Under the pieces are notes generated by a model. That model was not told where the DNA came from. It saw nothing but the letters and a program-made list of their open reading frames with translations, and made no database searches. The position numbers and the translations under genes were made by a program. A DNA stretch of 41,384 nt from Nitrospirota bacterium (lineage in GTDB: Bacteria > Nitrospirota > Thermodesulfovibrionia > Thermodesulfovibrionales > JdFR-86): the NCBI GenBank assembly GCA_016207905.1, contig JACQZC010000020.1, positions 1 through 41,384 on the forward strand, in the 5' to 3' direction. The first letter of the stretch is position 1; the number at the start of each line of letters is the position of its first letter. Shown here piece after piece: positions 2,667 to 27,833 of the stretch.

Positions 2667-3769
2667 CAATAGTCATAAAGATTGGCAGTAATATCATAGC
2701 AGACGAAAAAGGACTCGCTGAAAAAGAGATGCAGGCAATCGTAGCGGATATATCCTCTGTCTCTGATATGGGACATGATGTAGTAGTTGTCTCTTCAGGA
2801 GCAGTTGCCGCAGGCATGAGGAAATTAGGGCTTAAGAGAAAGCCAATGGACATAAAGCTCAAGCAGGCATCTGCGGCAATAGGACAGTCCTCGCTCATGT
2901 GGGCATATGAAAGATGCTTCAATGCTCATGGCAAAAAGGTTGCACAGGTTCTTCTTACCCGTGATGACATATCAGACAGAAAAAGATATATGAATTCGAG
3001 GAACACCCTTCTGACCCTGATTTCCTATGGAGTCATACCTGTGATTAACGAAAACGACACAGTTGCAATAGATGAGATTAGGTTTGGCGACAATGACCAG
3101 CTTGCGGCAATGGTAGCCTCGCTTGTTTCAGCAGAAAGGCTGATTATACTTTCCGATGTCGAGGGGCTTTACTCAGAAGACCCTAAGAAAAACCCAAGGG
3201 CAGAGCTTATAAAAACCGTGAATGAGATTACCGCTCACATGCTAAAGACTGCTAAGGGAGAGGGTGCACTCGGCACAGGCGGAATGCTCTCGAAACTCCT
3301 TGCCGCAGATAAGGCAGTTGGCTCAGGGATAACAGTAAACATCATAAACGGAAAAAAGCACGGGCTCCTTCAGAGCCTTCTTAATGGACATTCTCATGGA
3401 ACGGAATTCTCCTCGAGAAAAGGAAGGCTTTCAGCTAAAAAAGGCTGGATAGCATTTGGCATAAAGCCAAAGGGCTCGATTGTCATAGATGAGGGTGCAA
3501 AGAAGGCACTCATCAGTCTCGGCAGAAGCCTTCTTCCATCTGGAATCATAAAGACCGAGGGAAGTTTTGAGGCAGGAGATGCTGTTTATTGTCTTGATTC
3601 AGGAGGAGTGCGAATTGCAAAGGGCTTGACTAATTACTCCTCAGAGGAAATCGAAAAGATAAAAGGTAAAAAGACCTCTGACATAGAGAAGGCTCTTGGG
3701 TTTAAATACTCCGATGAGATTATTCATAGAGACAATATGGTGATACTACTTAGGGCATCGGGTAATTAG
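2663..3769 (+). CDS. proB: Glutamate 5-kinase
   Basis: A 368-residue enzyme phosphorylating glutamate to gamma-glutamyl phosphate, the first step of proline synthesis. The N-terminal amino-acid-kinase domain (about 1-255) shows VIKIGSN, VSSGAVAAGM, NENDTVA and the GTGGM motif. A C-terminal PUA domain (about 270-355) follows, as in the long bacterial form. The start overlaps the obgE stop. The stop overlaps the convergent aspS stop by four bases. No proA is present in the window. Confidence 0.96.
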   Translation: MTIVIKIGSNIIADEKGLAEKEMQAIVADISSVSDMGHDVVVVSSGAVAAGMRKLGLKRKPMDIKLKQASAAIGQSSLMWAYERCFNAHGKKVAQVLLTRDDISDRKRYMNSRNTLLTLISYGVIPVINENDTVAIDEIRFGDNDQLAAMVASLVSAERLIILSDVEGLYSEDPKKNPRAELIKTVNEITAHMLKTAKGEGALGTGGMLSKLLAADKAVGSGITVNIINGKKHGLLQSLLNGHSHGTEFSSRKGRLSAKKGWIAFGIKPKGSIVIDEGAKKALISLGRSLLPSGIIKTEGSFEAGDAVYCLDSGGVRIAKGLTNYSSEEIEKIKGKKTSDIEKALGFKYSDEIIHRDNMVILLRASGN

Positions 3770-5544
3770 CCCTCTATTTTTACACGAAGCTCTTTTAGCT
3801 GTTTTTCATCCACTACATTTGGTGCACCACTTAAGAGGCAGACCGACTTCTGTGTCTTTGGAAATGCAATCACATCCCTTATCGAGTCTGCACCAGCCAT
3901 AATCATTAGAAGCCTGTCAAGACCTAATGCGATGCCTCCGTGCGGAGGCGCTCCAAAGTCAAGTGCATCTAACAAAAAGCCGAATTTCACCCGTGCCTCA
4001 TCCTCTCCTATTCCCAAAAGCTCAAACATCTTTCTCTGTATGTCTCTTCTATGGATTCTTATACTTCCGCCTCCTATCTCATAGCCATTAAGAACAATGT
4101 CATATGACTTTGCAGAAAGTCTTAAAAGCCCATCCTTATCGTTTATATCCTCTTTCAGCATCATTTCCATGTCCTCATCGGTTGGCGATGTAAATGGATG
4201 ATGCATTGCAGTGAGCCTTCCTTCTTCTTCATCCCACTCAAAAAGCGGATAATCCGTGACCCAGAGAAATTTGTAGCCTGTGCTAATGAGATTAAGTCTT
4301 TTGCCTAATTCGAGCCGAAGTCTGCTTAAGACATCATGGACAACCCTCTCTTTGTCAGCCACAAAGAGCATGAGGTCTCCGGGCTCAGCCTCAAGCCTCT
4401 GAGACATTTCTTTCAGCACTTCTTCTGGAAAGAATTTTACGATGGGAGAATCAAACTTCCCATTAGGCTCTATGACCTTTATCCATGCAATGCCCTTTGC
4501 ACCAAAAGTCTTTGCCTCATCTATGAGGGTGTCTAAGTCTTTTCTCGACAATCCTGCCATACCTTTTCCATTTATAGCCTTAACCCTTTCTCCTTGACCG
4601 AGTGCATCTAAGAAGACCTTAAAAGAGCCCTTCCCTACAAGGTCTGCCATATCCTTAAGAGGCATGCCAAATCTTATATCAGGCTTATCGTTTCCAAACC
4701 TCTCCATGGAGTCCTTGTAAGTTAATCTCGGAAACGGAACCGAAAGCTCAGTATCGAGCACCTCCTTAAAGACATATTTCATCATGCCCTCTATTATGCC
4801 GATTATGTTTTCCCTGTCTATGAATGAGCTTTCTATGTCTACCTGTGTGAATTCAGGCTGTCTGTCTGCCCGTAGGTCTTCGTCCCTGAAGCACTTTACT
4901 ATCTGGAAATATTTCTCAAATCCAGATACCATAAGAATCTGCTTAAAAAGCTGTGGGGACTGTGGAAGTGCATAGAAATGTCCGGGATTAAGCCTGCTTG
5001 GAACAAGATAGTCCCTTGCACCTTCAGGAGTGCTTTTTGTAAGCATTGGGGTCTCTATCTCTAAGAATCCGCATTTATCGAGATAATCCCTTATAGTTTT
5101 AACTGCACGATGTCTTAAAATCAGGTTTTTCTGCATCTCGGGTCTTCTAAGGTCAAGGTACCTGTATTTATACCTTAAGGCTTCTCCTACTTCTTCCTCA
5201 AGTCCAAATGGAAGAGGCAGGGACTCGTTAAGCACTTTGAGAGAGTCTGCATAAAGCTCAACCATGCCTGTTGGTAGCATGAGGTTCTCTGTGCCTTCGG
5301 GTCTTTTTTTGATGGTGCCCTTTACAGAGATGACATACTCTGCCCTTAAGCTGTGTGCAAGCTTATGTAGTTGTTCTGAGACCTCAGGGTTAAAAACAAC
5401 CTGGATGATACCTGACCTGTCCCTTAAATCGATGAATATCAATCCGCCATGGTCACGCCTTCTGAATACCCAGCCAGAGACAGTAAGGCTCTGCCCTATA
5501 TCGGATTGTCTTATTTCGCCACAGCCTTTATCTCTGAGCATCAT
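3766..5544 (-). CDS. aspS: Aspartyl-tRNA synthetase
   Basis: A 592-residue bacterial-type class IIb synthetase charging tRNA-Asp. It has an N-terminal OB-fold anticodon domain (WVFRRRDHGGLIFIDLRDRSG), class II motif 1 near 165-180, motif 2 (FRDEDLRADRQPEFTQVD), a GAD insertion (about 295-420), and motif 3 (GIALGLDRLLMI) near the C-terminus. Whether it is discriminating or also charges tRNA-Asn cannot be decided here. Two adjacent ATGs (5544 and 5541) sit immediately after GGAGGT, which is unusually close. Convergent with proB, overlapping by four bases. Confidence 0.96.
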   Translation of the reverse strand: MMLRDKGCGEIRQSDIGQSLTVSGWVFRRRDHGGLIFIDLRDRSGIIQVVFNPEVSEQLHKLAHSLRAEYVISVKGTIKKRPEGTENLMLPTGMVELYADSLKVLNESLPLPFGLEEEVGEALRYKYRYLDLRRPEMQKNLILRHRAVKTIRDYLDKCGFLEIETPMLTKSTPEGARDYLVPSRLNPGHFYALPQSPQLFKQILMVSGFEKYFQIVKCFRDEDLRADRQPEFTQVDIESSFIDRENIIGIIEGMMKYVFKEVLDTELSVPFPRLTYKDSMERFGNDKPDIRFGMPLKDMADLVGKGSFKVFLDALGQGERVKAINGKGMAGLSRKDLDTLIDEAKTFGAKGIAWIKVIEPNGKFDSPIVKFFPEEVLKEMSQRLEAEPGDLMLFVADKERVVHDVLSRLRLELGKRLNLISTGYKFLWVTDYPLFEWDEEEGRLTAMHHPFTSPTDEDMEMMLKEDINDKDGLLRLSAKSYDIVLNGYEIGGGSIRIHRRDIQRKMFELLGIGEDEARVKFGFLLDALDFGAPPHGGIALGLDRLLMIMAGADSIRDVIAFPKTQKSVCLLSGAPNVVDEKQLKELRVKIEG

Positions 5545-5597: not shown

Positions 5598-5680
5598 TAA
5601 TGCCTAATGGTTTAATGCCCTTGTTGTTTCTTTTCAAAATCGTTGCCATCTCCTTTTTTTATAGGTTCAAGTTGAATTCC

Positions 5681-6087
5681 CTAAGTGCTTGAATTATCTT
5701 CATTTTGATCGTTTGAGTGTTCAATCTTTTTCATTTTGTTCAAGTTGCAGTCTTTTTCATCAGACTCTATGAGCCTTGCCTTATCCATGAGAATTGCAGA
5801 GGCAATAACCTTATCTTTTAAAGAAGCATATATGAGGTTTAGCCATATATCAGGTTTAGCTCACTTATCCTGCTTAGGATATGGTCTGAAAGAAGCCAGT
5901 ATTTCATGGCTGCCCTTTTTTTAATCTCATCTATAAAAGGGCTTAAATTTTCAGTTGGCTCTTTTACGATGTTATGCAAACTTCCTATACTTATCTCAAG
6001 CGTAGAGGCTATTTCCCTGTAGGGCTTACCCTCAGCCAGTAAAATCCTTGCACTTAGTCTTTTTTCCTCTGTGATTTTTTTATTCAT
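5681..6087 (-). pseudogene. Broken small HTH gene, 17-bp tandem duplication
   Basis: From ATG 6087 (GGAGGT seven bases upstream) the frame reads MNKKITEEKRLSARILL and on into an HTH (KPYREIASTLEISIGSLHNIV, read in two parts) before stopping at 5839. The frame breaks inside a tandem repeat. CCATATATCAGGTTTAG at 5843-5859 repeats GCATATATGAGGTTTAG at 5826-5842 with 15/17 matches. Removing one unit joins ...SELNLIY to ASLKDKVIASAILMDK and runs to TAG at 5681-5683, giving about 129 residues. The C-terminal half recurs at 27558 and its extreme 3' part at 22331. Function is unknown; a phage- or element-type DNA-binding protein is plausible. Confidence 0.75.
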
Positions 6088-6100
6088 AAGTCTTACCTCC

Positions 6101-6173
6101 AACTATGGTTTTATAAGCTATAATCTATTAAAACTATAGTTAGTAGTATAAGGCATGGTTTTTGATTTGTCAA
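6101..6173 (-). promoter_or_regulatory. Promoter and two-site operator of the broken HTH gene
   Basis: Reverse strand: TTGACA (6168-6173), a 17-base spacer and TATACT (6145-6150) make a near-perfect promoter. AACTATAGTT, a palindrome, lies at 6132-6141 close to the expected start site. A near copy, AACTATGGTT, lies at 6101-6110, exactly 31 bases away centre to centre and next to the ribosome site. Two same-face sites spaced three helical turns apart suggest autorepression by the HTH protein. This is inference. Confidence 0.6.
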
Positions 6174-6180
6174 GCCCTTT

Positions 6181-6354: not shown

Positions 6355-6420
6355 TCCTTATTTCTGTCTTACTAACCCTTGCAATAATCCTTATTTCTGT
6401 CTTACTAACCCTTGCAATAA
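6355..6420. repeat. Two perfect 33-bp tandem repeats
   Basis: Units 6355-6387 and 6388-6420 are identical, starting TCCTTATTTCTGTC and ending TTGCAATAA. There is no open reading frame of note across them. They may be a recent slippage product or a two-unit binding array upstream of the gene at 6483. Confidence 0.8.
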
Positions 6421-6482: not shown

Positions 6483-7268
6483 ATGAAAAACCACAGCTCA
6501 ATCTTTATGAGAAACCTCCAAAGAGGTATAGAAAAAGGCTATATCTCTTTGTCTTCTGACAATTCCAAGATTACCTACCATTGCCATAGGGACTATACAA
6601 CGAGTTTTAAGAAGCCAGAGGAAAAAGTAAGGGCATCATATTTTGCCGAGCTTATATTGGATTACGGTTATCCAAATAAAAGAATTGATATAGAGGTTAT
6701 TGTTCCAAGAAGAAAACCAGAGGACAGAGCAGATATTGTTGTTTATGAAGATGACGAGCTAAAAAAACCTTACTTAGTTGTTGAGTGCAAGAAAGATGGC
6801 ATTACCGATGCTGAATTTAAGCAGGCTATTGAGCAGGCTTTTGGAAATGCAAATAGTTTAAGGGCAAAATTTGCTTCTGTAATAGCCGGAATAACTAAGA
6901 CAACCTTTGACATCGCAGGATTTAAGCCAAGTGAAAGAGAAAAGAATGTTATATCAGATATTCCTATAAAATATGGCAAAACCCCAAAATATAGAAATGA
7001 AGTAAATAGAGATTTTTTATTCTATGTTTTAAGGACAACCCTATGTTTAAACCAAATGCTTCAAAGAAGTAGTGGCGGTAATTATCCAGCCATAACTCCA
7101 GAAGATCTTAAAAAAATTAAAGTTCCTCTCCCTCCTCTTGAAATCCAAAACAAAATCGCAGAGGAAGTTAAAAGACGAATATCTGAGGCTGAAAAGCTAA
7201 AGGCAGAAGCAAATAAAATTATAGAGTCAGCCAAAAAGCAGGTTGAAGAAATGATACTAAGCAGTTAA
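6483..7268 (+). CDS. HsdR-N nuclease / HsdS tail chimera, probable deletion remnant
   Basis: A 261-residue hybrid of two restriction-modification parts. Residues 1-170 match the N-terminal nuclease domain of type I R or fused R-M proteins: D84 in DRADIVVY and E101-x-K103 in VVECKK form the PD-(D/E)xK core, followed by the Q-rich helix AIEQAFGNANSLRAKF. From about 172 the protein becomes the C-terminal end of a specificity subunit: NRDFLFYVL, SSGGNYPAITPEDLKKIKVP, LPPLEIQNKIAEE, then a long coiled coil to the end. The methylase and most target-recognition sequence expected between these parts are missing, and the junction is in frame. Activity is doubtful; an expressed stump is possible. Confidence 0.7.
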   Translation: MKNHSSIFMRNLQRGIEKGYISLSSDNSKITYHCHRDYTTSFKKPEEKVRASYFAELILDYGYPNKRIDIEVIVPRRKPEDRADIVVYEDDELKKPYLVVECKKDGITDAEFKQAIEQAFGNANSLRAKFASVIAGITKTTFDIAGFKPSEREKNVISDIPIKYGKTPKYRNEVNRDFLFYVLRTTLCLNQMLQRSSGGNYPAITPEDLKKIKVPLPPLEIQNKIAEEVKRRISEAEKLKAEANKIIESAKKQVEEMILSS

Positions 7269-22330: not shown

Positions 22331-22414
22331 ATTTGAACAAAATGAAGATAATTCAAGCACTTAGGGAATTGAACTTGAACCTATAAAAAAAGGAGATGGC
22401 AACGATTTTTGAAA
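22331..22414 (+). repeat. Remnant copy 2 of the dispersed HTH module (3' end only)
   Basis: This plus-strand segment runs TTTGAACAAAATGAA then AGATAATTCAAGCACTTAGG and on to GGAGATGGCAACGATTTTTG. It matches the 3' end of the broken HTH gene at 5681 and its downstream flank, and the copy at 27517-27600. Relative to both it lacks about 25 bases between two AATGAA strings. After the conserved GGAG-ATGGCAACGATTTT the three copies diverge. Region 22272-22330 holds nothing I can identify. Confidence 0.75.
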
Positions 22415-22481: not shown

Positions 22482-23684
22482 ATGCTAACACTGTCCGATA
22501 TTAAATCCGCCAGTCAAGCCATAAAGCCTTATATATATAAGACCCCACTTATATACTCGGATTCCTTAAGCAAAAGGCTTGGCGCAGATGTTTATCTTAA
22601 ATGTGAAAACCTCCAGAGAACAGGCTCTTTTAAGGTAAGGGGTGCATTCAATAAGATTATAGGAATTGCAAAGGGTGCAAAAAAAACACTGAAGGGTGTT
22701 ATAACTGCCTCTATGGGAAACCATGCACAGGGTGTTGCTTATGCGGCATCTACAGTCGGAGTCAAAGCAAAGGTAGTTATGCCAAAAGGTGTATCCATCG
22801 TAAAGGAAGAGGCTGTAAGGTCATACGGTGCAGAGGTCGTTCTTTATGGAGAAAACCTTAAAGATGCCCTTAGTTATGCAAATGCACAAAAAGACTACAC
22901 CTTCATTCATCCCTATGATGACGAAGATATAATCTCAGGTCAGGGAAGTATTGGCATAGAGATATCGGATGAGATGGATAACATAGATTTTGCGTTAGTG
23001 CCAGTAGGAGGAGGAGGACTCATCTCAGGGGTTGCAGTAGCCCTCAAGTCCATTTTGCCTCACACATTGGTTATAGGCATTCAAACAGAGTCCGCAACAT
23101 CTGCACTAAGCTCATTCAGGAAAAAGAAACTCATAGAGAGTGTTCCTCTTCCAACATTGGCAGATGGAATAGCAGTAGGAAGGGTAGGAAAACTACCGCT
23201 TAAGATTATGCAGAGGTTTGTAGATGACATGGTCTTTGTCCATGAGGGCTCGATAGCAAAGGCAATACTTCTTTTCCTTGAAAGAAAAAAGCTCGTTGTC
23301 GAAGGAGCAGGTGCGGTGCCACTTGCCTACTGTCTCGAAGATGGCAACAGGTTTAAGGGGAAACGCATCGTCTTACTTATAAGCGGAGGTAATATAGATT
23401 TTACACTTATAGACAGGATAATCCATAGAGGGCTTATCGAAAGCAGAAGAATCGGGATTTTCGAGGTAGTTATCAGCGACACACCCGGCTCTCTTCATGC
23501 AGTTACAGGCATTATCTCAGCAGAAAGAGGCAATATCCTGAATGTCATTCATAACAGGCTTTCAGGAGATATCCCTATTGGAAAGACAAAGGTTCAGTTC
23601 ACAGTAGAGCTTAAAAACAAAGAGCATCTCGATAAGATTATATCTGCCCTTAAATCAAAAGGGATAAGTGCAGTTGAAATTTGA
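22482..23684 (+). CDS. ilvA: Threonine ammonia-lyase
   Basis: A 400-residue PLP enzyme converting threonine to 2-oxobutanoate for isoleucine synthesis. The Schiff-base Lys51 lies in RTGSFKVRGAF; ASMGNHAQGVAYAA and the phosphate loop VGGGGLISG follow. A C-terminal ACT domain (about 325-400, FEVVISDTPGSLHAVTGIIS) suggests feedback control. This is the shorter single-ACT form. The TdcB-like catabolic role cannot be excluded, but no degradative neighbours are present. Confidence 0.94.
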   Translation: MLTLSDIKSASQAIKPYIYKTPLIYSDSLSKRLGADVYLKCENLQRTGSFKVRGAFNKIIGIAKGAKKTLKGVITASMGNHAQGVAYAASTVGVKAKVVMPKGVSIVKEEAVRSYGAEVVLYGENLKDALSYANAQKDYTFIHPYDDEDIISGQGSIGIEISDEMDNIDFALVPVGGGGLISGVAVALKSILPHTLVIGIQTESATSALSSFRKKKLIESVPLPTLADGIAVGRVGKLPLKIMQRFVDDMVFVHEGSIAKAILLFLERKKLVVEGAGAVPLAYCLEDGNRFKGKRIVLLISGGNIDFTLIDRIIHRGLIESRRIGIFEVVISDTPGSLHAVTGIISAERGNILNVIHNRLSGDIPIGKTKVQFTVELKNKEHLDKIISALKSKGISAVEI

Positions 23685-26355: not shown

Positions 26356-26783
26356 AGGAGTTTCTTTTCATCTATTCCGCTTATGAGAATCTCTCTTTTT
26401 TCCTTTGAAAGAATCTTTATGGATACCTTTATTACATCCTCTACATGGGAGAGTTTCTCTGCCCACTCTATGACAGCTATACCGTTTCCTCCGATGAGTT
26501 CATAGATGCCTGTTTCTTCTATGTCTTTTGCGTTTTCAAGTCTGTAGAGGTCAATGTGATAAAAGGGCATATCCTTTGCTTTATGCTCTCCTACTATGAT
26601 AAAGCTCGAGCTTGAAATCTCTCTTTCAGGTATTCCAATGGCAGTTCCTATGCCTTTTATGAATGTTGTTTTTCCAGAGCCTAACTCTCCGTAAAGGCAT
26701 ACGGTATCTCCTGATTTAAGAAGTTTTCCAAGCCTTCTACCGATGTTTTTCGTATCTCCTTCTTTATTACTTACGACCTTCAA
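26352..26783 (-). CDS. tsaE: tRNA threonylcarbamoyladenosine biosynthesis ATPase TsaE
   Basis: A 143-residue P-loop ATPase of the t6A37 synthesis complex with TsaB and TsaD. Walker A GELGSGKTT is at 32-40; SSSFIIVGEH and FYHIDLYRLE give the threonine and aspartate of the family, then VIEWAEKL. It overlaps pgeF upstream by four bases, forming an operon. A nearby nnrD fragment (28480) is interesting because nnrD and tsaE are often neighbours. Confidence 0.93.
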   Translation of the reverse strand: MKVVSNKEGDTKNIGRRLGKLLKSGDTVCLYGELGSGKTTFIKGIGTAIGIPEREISSSSFIIVGEHKAKDMPFYHIDLYRLENAKDIEETGIYELIGGNGIAVIEWAEKLSHVEDVIKVSIKILSKEKREILISGIDEKKLL

Positions 26784-27460
26784 CTCCGAATCCCTATAAA
26801 TCCGCCCTGTCTTCCCGTAGTGCCTTTGGTCTTTCTATAAGAGTAAAACCTTTCGGATGAGCAATATGTGCACTCATCGGACATCCAGATGTTTTCCTTA
26901 GAGATTCCCATAGACATTGCCTGATACATATTAGCATATGATAAATCAAGACGATTCGCACCATTTCTCTGAGTATAATAGTCTCCCTTACCTGTTTCCT
27001 TTATGACGGCTTGAAGGACATCCAATCCAACCTTATAACAGCACCCTCTTATGGCAGGGCCAATTGCCATGAGGATATTGTCGGATTTAGAGGAATTAAG
27101 CATCTTCCTCAGGGTTTTCTTTAGTATGCCCTTTACAGTTCCTCTCCAGCCTGCATGAACAGCTGCAATTAGATTACTGTCTCTACTATAGATGAGTATT
27201 GGCACACAGTCTGCGGTCTGAATGCCAATAAGCACATCTTTTCTTCCTGTTATTACTGCATCGGCTACCTGTGGTGTCATATCCATCTTTAGCTCAATTA
27301 CTTTGCCTGTGTGGAGTTGTTTTGGAAAATAAATATTATCTTTGCTGACAGAGGCAATCTCGGCAATCCTTCCTATATGGGCACCCGGGGATTTGCCTGT
27401 AAAGAATGCCTTAACACCTTTACCAAATATCTCAGGATATATGATATAGTCAATCGGCAT
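26780..27460 (-). CDS. pgeF: Multicopper/LACC1-type purine nucleoside phosphorylase (YfiH family)
   Basis: A 226-residue member of the YfiH/PgeF (DUF152) family, also described as a peptidoglycan editing factor. It contains DAVITGRKDVLIGIQTADCV, VHAGWRGTVKGI and GPAIRGCCYKVG, the conserved His/Cys metal-site blocks, and DECTYCSSERFYSYRK near the end. The protein starts near MPIDYIIYP; TAAAAT lies five bases upstream with no ribosome site. It is in an operon with tsaE. Confidence 0.9.
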   Translation of the reverse strand: MPIDYIIYPEIFGKGVKAFFTGKSPGAHIGRIAEIASVSKDNIYFPKQLHTGKVIELKMDMTPQVADAVITGRKDVLIGIQTADCVPILIYSRDSNLIAAVHAGWRGTVKGILKKTLRKMLNSSKSDNILMAIGPAIRGCCYKVGLDVLQAVIKETGKGDYYTQRNGANRLDLSYANMYQAMSMGISKENIWMSDECTYCSSERFYSYRKTKGTTGRQGGFIGIRS

Positions 27461-27557
27461 AAACTATTTTACCTTAAGAGTGTGTTTTCTGATGCACTTT
27501 TATATCATCAAAAAAATCGTTGCCATCTCCCTTTTTTATAGGTTCAAGTTCAATTCC

Positions 27558-27726
27558 CTAAGTGCTTGAATTATCTTCATTTTTATCGTTAGAGCGTTCA
27601 ATCTTTTTCATTTTGTTCAAATTGCCGCCTTTTTCATCAGCCTCGATAAGCCTTGCCTTATCCATGAGTATTGCAGAGGCAATAGCCTTGCACTCAGCCT
27701 TTTTCATCAGAAATCTTTTTGCTCAT
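27558..27726 (-). pseudogene. Remnant copy 3 of the dispersed HTH module (internal deletion)
   Basis: ATG 27726 reads MSKKISDEKG then stop, matching the first ten residues of the gene at 6087 (MNKKITEEKR). Immediately after, in the frame opened by the stop, comes KAIASAILMDKARLIEADEK and NLNKMKKIERSNDKNEDNSS, ending at TAG 27558-27560. That equals the C-terminal third of copy 1. About 200 bases encoding the HTH core are missing. The flank to 27517 also matches copy 1, ending at ATGGCAACGATTTT. Confidence 0.75.
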
Positions 27727-27780
27727 ATGTCGCCTGTCATAGCTTAAATCAAAAGGGGATGAAGCAGTCAAGATGAAGTA

Positions 27781-27814
27781 TTTCACCTGAAATGTTTCAC
27801 CTGAAATGTTTCAC
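27781..27814. repeat. 14-bp tandem repeat
   Basis: TTTCACCTGAAATG occurs twice in tandem and a third unit is started (TTTCAC). A related phrase, CTTCACTTGAACTGTTTCAT, lies at 24881-24900, preceded there as here by AAGATGAA. It appears to be a small dispersed intergenic element. Confidence 0.6.
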
Positions 27815-27833
27815 TATGTCCATTTCCACATCC

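Follow-up and report, generated by a model that had tools for sequence, protein, structure and literature searches.

The broken HTH gene in the stretch of DNA analysed here (the window, 41,384 nucleotides long) is probably a decayed copy of the one gene that a scattered, MITE-like repeat of Nitrospirae carries, and copies of this repeat element without the HTH gene have spread. Discrete copies of the element are dispersed through the genome from which the window comes (the own genome), deletion joints are common to copies at different loci, and left and right segments of the element occur as pairs in four other genomes. The features of the window are collected in Table 1. The left edge of the long window copy was placed by eye with the help of other copies of its left module, m1; on the right, homology between copies ends 2-6 bp past the right-end motif.

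Table 1. Element copies, their parts and the adjoining genes in the window, with the basis of each assignment.
Feature	Position	Strand	Basis
Aspartyl-tRNA synthetase-type gene (aspS), downstream of long copy	3766..5544	-	Pfam tRNA-synt_2, GAD, tRNA_anti-codon
Long element copy: left promoter/operator module, HTH gene, right motif	5635..6180	-	56 own-genome DNA matches
Right-end motif AACCTATAAAAAAAGGAGATGGCAACGAT	5639..5667	-	37 own-genome copies
Displaced HTH C-terminal frame and old stop	5681..5842	-	Match to C45 residues 77-133
17-bp tandem duplication, 2 units, 15/17 identical	5826..5859	.	Tandem Repeats Finder; C45/C75 comparison
A-type HTH gene, 82 residues up to the duplication-made stop	5839..6087	-	ORF reading; comparison with paralogue C45
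Two-site operator-like block: AACTATAGTT 6132-6141, AACTATGGTT 6101-6110	6101..6141	.	Motif match; recurrence
m1 sigma70-type promoter TTGACA-17-TATACT	6145..6173	-	Read from sequence
Right-end element remnant	22335..22411	+	95% identical over query 431-511
PALP + ACT-domain enzyme gene, downstream of third copy	22482..23684	+	Domain match
PF02578 (laccase-type) gene, downstream of second copy	26780..27460	-	Domain match
Internally deleted element copy under m2 module	27513..27830	-	93% identical over query 329-505
Tandem 14-bp operator-like units, module m2	27781..27814	.	Tandem Repeats Finder; recurs at other m2 copies

The long window copy finds 56 DNA matches in the own genome, which is a 2.03-Mb assembly of 98 contigs. 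The right-end motif, 25-29 nt in length, has 37 own-genome copies with at most 3 mismatches to its 25-nt form and none in a backwards control, and in a search of 295 genomes it was confined to the own genome, being absent from the 294 others sampled from the phylum. Intact HTH frames are present solely on contigs C45, C17 and C93, one for each of three subfamilies: the A type at C45 (133 aa counted from an internal ATG), the B type at C17 (148-152 aa) and the C type at C93 (165 aa). Identity to the A protein is 51% for B and 48% for C, and each of the three intact genes ends at the same right motif, next to its stop codon. A further copy, at C75, retains an in-frame HTH remnant of 95 aa. Most other copies lack the HTH, yet they possess the promoter/operator left end and the TTGAAC-(A)7-GG right end.

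Module matching shows that a copy starts with one of the left modules m1-m5; the HTH, or what is left of it, comes next, and a subfamily tail leads on to the right motif. Module m1 consists of a TTGACA-TATACT promoter with AACTATAGTT sites, and m2 of tandem 14-bp GTGAAACATTTCA units with TTGACT-TATAGT. The intact A gene is paired with m2, the B gene with m1 and the C gene with m4; the window copy and the copy at C40 have an A-type gene under the B-type m1 module, and the modules have therefore recombined. Judged from its modules, the window copy is itself a mosaic. It retains, as the original prediction had stated, its promoter and two-site operator: the boxes TTGACA and TATACT, read from the sequence at 6168-6173 and 6145-6150 with a 17-bp spacer, are accompanied by two AACTATAGTT-like sites, and three other m1 copies have the same promoter, with a score of 13.8. 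By number alone the AACTATAGTT-like sites are within chance in the window (4 matches against 1.65 expected, with 6 of 100 shuffles as high); their support comes from the two-site block, which is found again at seven further own-genome positions. The related copy that had been reported near 27.5 kb does exist (27513-27689, 93% identical). It is not a second gene, however, but a derivative with an internal deletion, an m2 module at -245 and an A tail, a point that the original prediction overlooked, as it did the dispersed, high-copy nature of the element. The right-end motif of the remnant copy lies at 22382-22406.

Some of these blocks are also found in other settings. Seven tandem 14-bp GGTGAAGGATTTCA-type units lie upstream of a small gene at C1:30386 (L184 886-969), and two m2-type 14-bp units with a -10 box lie directly upstream of a folD-like gene at C28:24567 (L185), with no HTH remnant. 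At C75:29248 (L040 1049-1088) the m1 promoter block is followed by a different, C-rich 3' module (GGGTTATGAGGNACCCCCCC...) and by what we take to be a DUF1804-like HTH gene. The same C-rich module follows m1 at DNA-ligase-like, PilZ-like and PolX-like genes, and the combination looks like a second element family. Elsewhere in the window, a perfect 33-bp tandem duplication is present at 6355-6420, by repeat-rich DNA upstream of a gene at 6483; this gene, a 261-aa frame (6483-7268), fuses a type I restriction HSDR_N domain with a partial Methylase_S specificity domain, which is an unusual pairing. An Rfam scan of the window returned one tRNA and nothing else.

Identical deletion joints are found at unrelated loci within each of three groups, C21/C47/C62, C60b/C92/C95 and C50/C9, whose members are 89-98% identical inside; the joint-sharing copies without HTH were also counted as C21+C47+C62, six SB copies and three SC copies. 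Inside these groups the identity is mostly 88-98%. Similarity between HTH-less copies ends about 2-6 bp past the right motif in most pairs, and its left edge is near -270 to -355. There are exceptions: a few pairs are similar for 20-37 bp beyond the motif, some have extra short similar stretches that derive from other repeats, the alignment of C23 with C50 is longer, at 79%, and the copies on C92 and C95 begin near contig ends. Shared deletion joints at unrelated loci, together with the sharp edges, imply that the HTH-less copies have themselves propagated.

The family extends beyond the own genome. Among 60 further genomes from the order, 5 encode the HTH protein, and an alignment scan returned 13 loci matching it, 9 of which are titled as Nitrospirae MAGs; protein scans of viral contigs with the B type and of genome contigs with the A type gave no relatives. 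When the HTH loci of two relatives were used as DNA queries, with up to 40 candidates scored per genome, left and right segments were found dispersed without the middle in four genomes, with at least 34 matches in G058, 12 in G040, 53 in G008 and 53 in G049; the same queries gave no dispersed segments in G004. Neighbouring matches on the same strand were picked by hand to give 34 HTH-less pairs, 128-441 bp long, in which the left segment precedes the right in 34/34, the pairs having been chosen as such. The right motif, written as TTGAAC-N-(A)5+-GG, is present in 27/34 of the pairs compared with 2/771 control windows, and the left operator in 26/34 compared with 0/771; both patterns were written after examples had been seen, which, with the choice of pairs by hand, tilts the counts towards the element reading. 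In G004, a genome of the same family, AACTATAGTT sites are clustered upstream of the HTH gene (6 in locus L088 where 0.26 are expected, 5 of them within about 230 bp). Nine locus pairs are orthologous between G008 and G049, and the element is common to all of them, which indicates that many of the insertions are old; no empty site occurs among the nine, the loci compared being element-bearing ones only. At one such locus (L229/L212) the G049 copy has another repeat, of 526 bp, inserted in the middle of the element.

A different reading of the dispersal is that the element is a mobile promoter cassette, kept for regulated transcription of the downstream gene, with the HTH protein controlling a scattered regulon. 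In the own genome the gene that follows the right motif is co-oriented with it in 31 of 37 cases, opposed in 3 and undecided in 3, and the 31 co-oriented genes start within 220 nt of the motif. These orientation counts, like those for the relatives below, rest on gene calls from simple home-made finders, and the own-genome ones leave out the copies on C24 and C9 (motif indel), both of which have a co-oriented next gene. Strong outward promoters are present inside several copies, from a partial list of internal promoters, and m1 or m2 blocks that lack a right motif stand upstream of the DNA-ligase-like, PilZ-like and folD-like genes, as these were named by eye from their translations. However, divergent gaps, which make co-orientation inevitable, account for 18 of the 31 co-oriented cases, and among clear tandem gaps 4 are co-oriented and 2 opposed. 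The DNA separating motif and gene, moreover, already scores better for promoters than shuffles that preserve single-base composition only (mean 7.82 against 5.55, n=28), so that the downstream genes probably retain promoters of their own. Co-orientation of the following gene drops to 16/34 in the four relatives, a difference from the own genome at Fisher p 1.5e-4, and since these genomes have no orientation preference the cassette was rejected as a general role; as an account of the element we consider it unlikely. Of 10 HTH loci in relatives, 9 have a following gene in the same orientation. Placement upstream of genes is thus a feature of the own genome, perhaps also of HTH-bearing copies, and no general rule.

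The gene in the window that belongs to the repeat element is broken in the manner originally described. Its frame begins with the ATG at 6087 on the minus strand and, because of the 17-bp tandem duplication, stops inside the repeat after 82 codons. Tandem Repeats Finder reports a period-17 array at 5827-5860 with 94% matches; tandem identity of at least 15/17 at period 17 is found in the window solely at offsets 5826-5828, and 1 of 60 dinucleotide shuffles contains any such pair. The restored frame of about 129 residues that had been proposed agrees with the coordinates (76 + 53 residues), and the expectation that the downstream frame is conserved as protein was borne out. The post-repeat frame (5684-5842) is 75% identical to residues 77-133 of the intact paralogue C45, and the differences fall on codon positions 1, 2 and 3 in the numbers 6, 6 and 16, a third-position excess that marks the displaced frame as former protein. 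The part upstream is 77% identical to C45 across residues 1-81, and the dN/dS of the 82-residue part against C45 is 0.23. Together with the third-position excess, this value indicates that protein selection on the gene preceded its breakage, and past purifying selection on the HTH frame is evident from the codon comparison. The duplication is absent from C45, which is intact, and from C75, each with a single unit at the site; apart from the window copy, no others in the family retain this part as DNA. Simple decay of one family copy is the most likely explanation of the broken gene, because most other copies have lost the HTH by various different lesions.

The truncated 82-residue product might still be a DNA binder, the loss of its C-terminus being tolerated or even useful, since the HTH proper (about residues 6-43) lies entirely upstream of the new stop and the promoter is retained. 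Beyond the stop, however, the segment SLKDKVIASAILxDKA is nearly unchanged in all three intact paralogues and is probably required for function for that reason, and a working truncated product appears quite unlikely. The two units could alternatively be an artefact of assembly, a graph join of two repeat copies that is absent from the chromosome, which we regard as distinctly unlikely. Several contigs of the own MAG (C2, C4, C38, C47, C69, C78, C92 and C95) do end in or near an element copy, and the units differ at 2 positions, unit 1 having one base in common with C45 where unit 2 agrees with C75, as a join of paralogues would give. This difference suggests such a join, in the chromosome or in the assembly, but genuine unequal recombination would give the same picture, and outside the duplication both the copy and its flanking DNA are unique and colinear. 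The original prediction left the choice between decay and a reversible slippage switch, and the first of these stands. A switch toggling the HTH protein on and off, in favour of which are an intact promoter and operator and the in-frame reading of a one-unit allele, is very improbable and was rejected, because there are just two imperfect units with a longest perfect common run of about 8 bp, C45 and C75 have one unit, the two-unit state is found in none of the other copies, and large deletions account for the loss in those; ordinary decay, or the joining of two repeat copies, fits the duplication better.

Among profile matches of the HTH protein, HTH_23 reaches the Pfam cut-off in one relative (L082), and an NCBIfam search gave no match above cut-off. 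The best long profile match is PHROG 2538, the small subunit of terminase (E values: C type 9.5e-7, A type 0.0004, B type 0.002), which is matched at 0.01 or better by 1 of 8 A2 members; in the relatives other HTH families mostly rank first, and the best match varies by member. Most of the profile matches reflect the HTH alone, and the PDB profile match to 8vd6 (1.5e-8) covers only the HTH. The AlphaFold model is all-helical and of medium quality (mean pLDDT 69.5), and a Foldseek search with it gave no hit with an E value of 0.001 or below. The protein has no recognised catalytic domain.

The decay reading is part of a probable scheme for the element as a whole. An intact element has a left module, with a sigma70 promoter and operator sites; a gene for a small HTH protein of 130-170 residues; and, as its right module, TTGAAC sites that run into an A-tract and GG. 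Each subfamily has one intact gene left, A at C45, B at C17 and C at C93. Most other copies lost the HTH but not their ends and were afterwards copied to new loci, and the HTH protein may bind the left operators, the TTGAAC sites or both, and so mark the ends for a mover that acts in trans. The bolder version is that of a transposable-element family in several Nitrospirae genera whose sole gene encodes a terminase-like HTH protein, which by binding the ends would hijack a host or phage function and copy HTH-less elements in trans from one intact master per subfamily; this we hold to be rather improbable. In practical terms, intergenic “broken HTH genes” in such Nitrospirae MAGs may be copies of one repeat family, and contigs break at such places.

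No transposase linked to the element ends was found among the three candidates that were checked. ISKra4 was rejected as the mover because its transposase (NF033572) has 0 matches in the own genome, and Transposase_mut (PF00872) because it is present as partial frames with no full one. A RAYT-like Y1 transposase gene at C75:29477-30011 (L186) is bracketed by GACAGGCGTCTCGCCTGTC-type palindromes and was rejected as well, since these are its own REP palindromes and are unrelated to the element ends. Comparison of three copies gave no convincing end-to-end terminal inverted repeat, and inspection by eye of the flanks of several copies, whose left edge is not base-exact, gave no consistent target-site duplication. 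The family was not found in open-access PMC literature on mobile promoters, on Nitrospirae MITEs and repeats, or on HTH-only repeats.

The element has likenesses to several known systems. Its HTH protein has a weak but long profile similarity to small terminase subunits, although no phage genes were recognised alongside it and the annotated neighbours are housekeeping genes. Placement in the own genome resembles the oriented insertion just upstream of sigmaA promoters that is described for the Mutator-like elements TnGBS, ISLre2 and ISKra4 (PMC3942029). It differs in that their fixed distance of 13-17 bp to the -35 box is lacking, the best -35 positions being scattered from 1 to 150 bp past the right motif (28 sites), and also in the lack of an ISKra4 transposase and of an upstream preference in the relatives. 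With REPIN/RAYT systems (PMC3116915) the element has in common one chromosomal gene and many gene-less copies in the same genome, but its ends are not inverted REP doublets, and the single Y1 transposase of the genome has other palindromes. Like MITEs such as MITEAba12 (PMC6382973), the element has short, multi-copy, non-coding derivatives with sharp ends, many of them intergenic, and these are internally deleted relatives of a longer parent; unlike MITEs, it has parents (C45, C17, C93) that encode an HTH protein and no transposase, and no terminal inverted repeats or target-site duplication were identified. The family, in which parents with nothing but an HTH gene have given many HTH-less derivatives in several genera, is a full fit to none of those tested. 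If it does spread with one intact HTH gene per subfamily and no catalytic gene of its own, it would be parasitic DNA of an unusually minimal kind and a pointer to a mover as yet undescribed.
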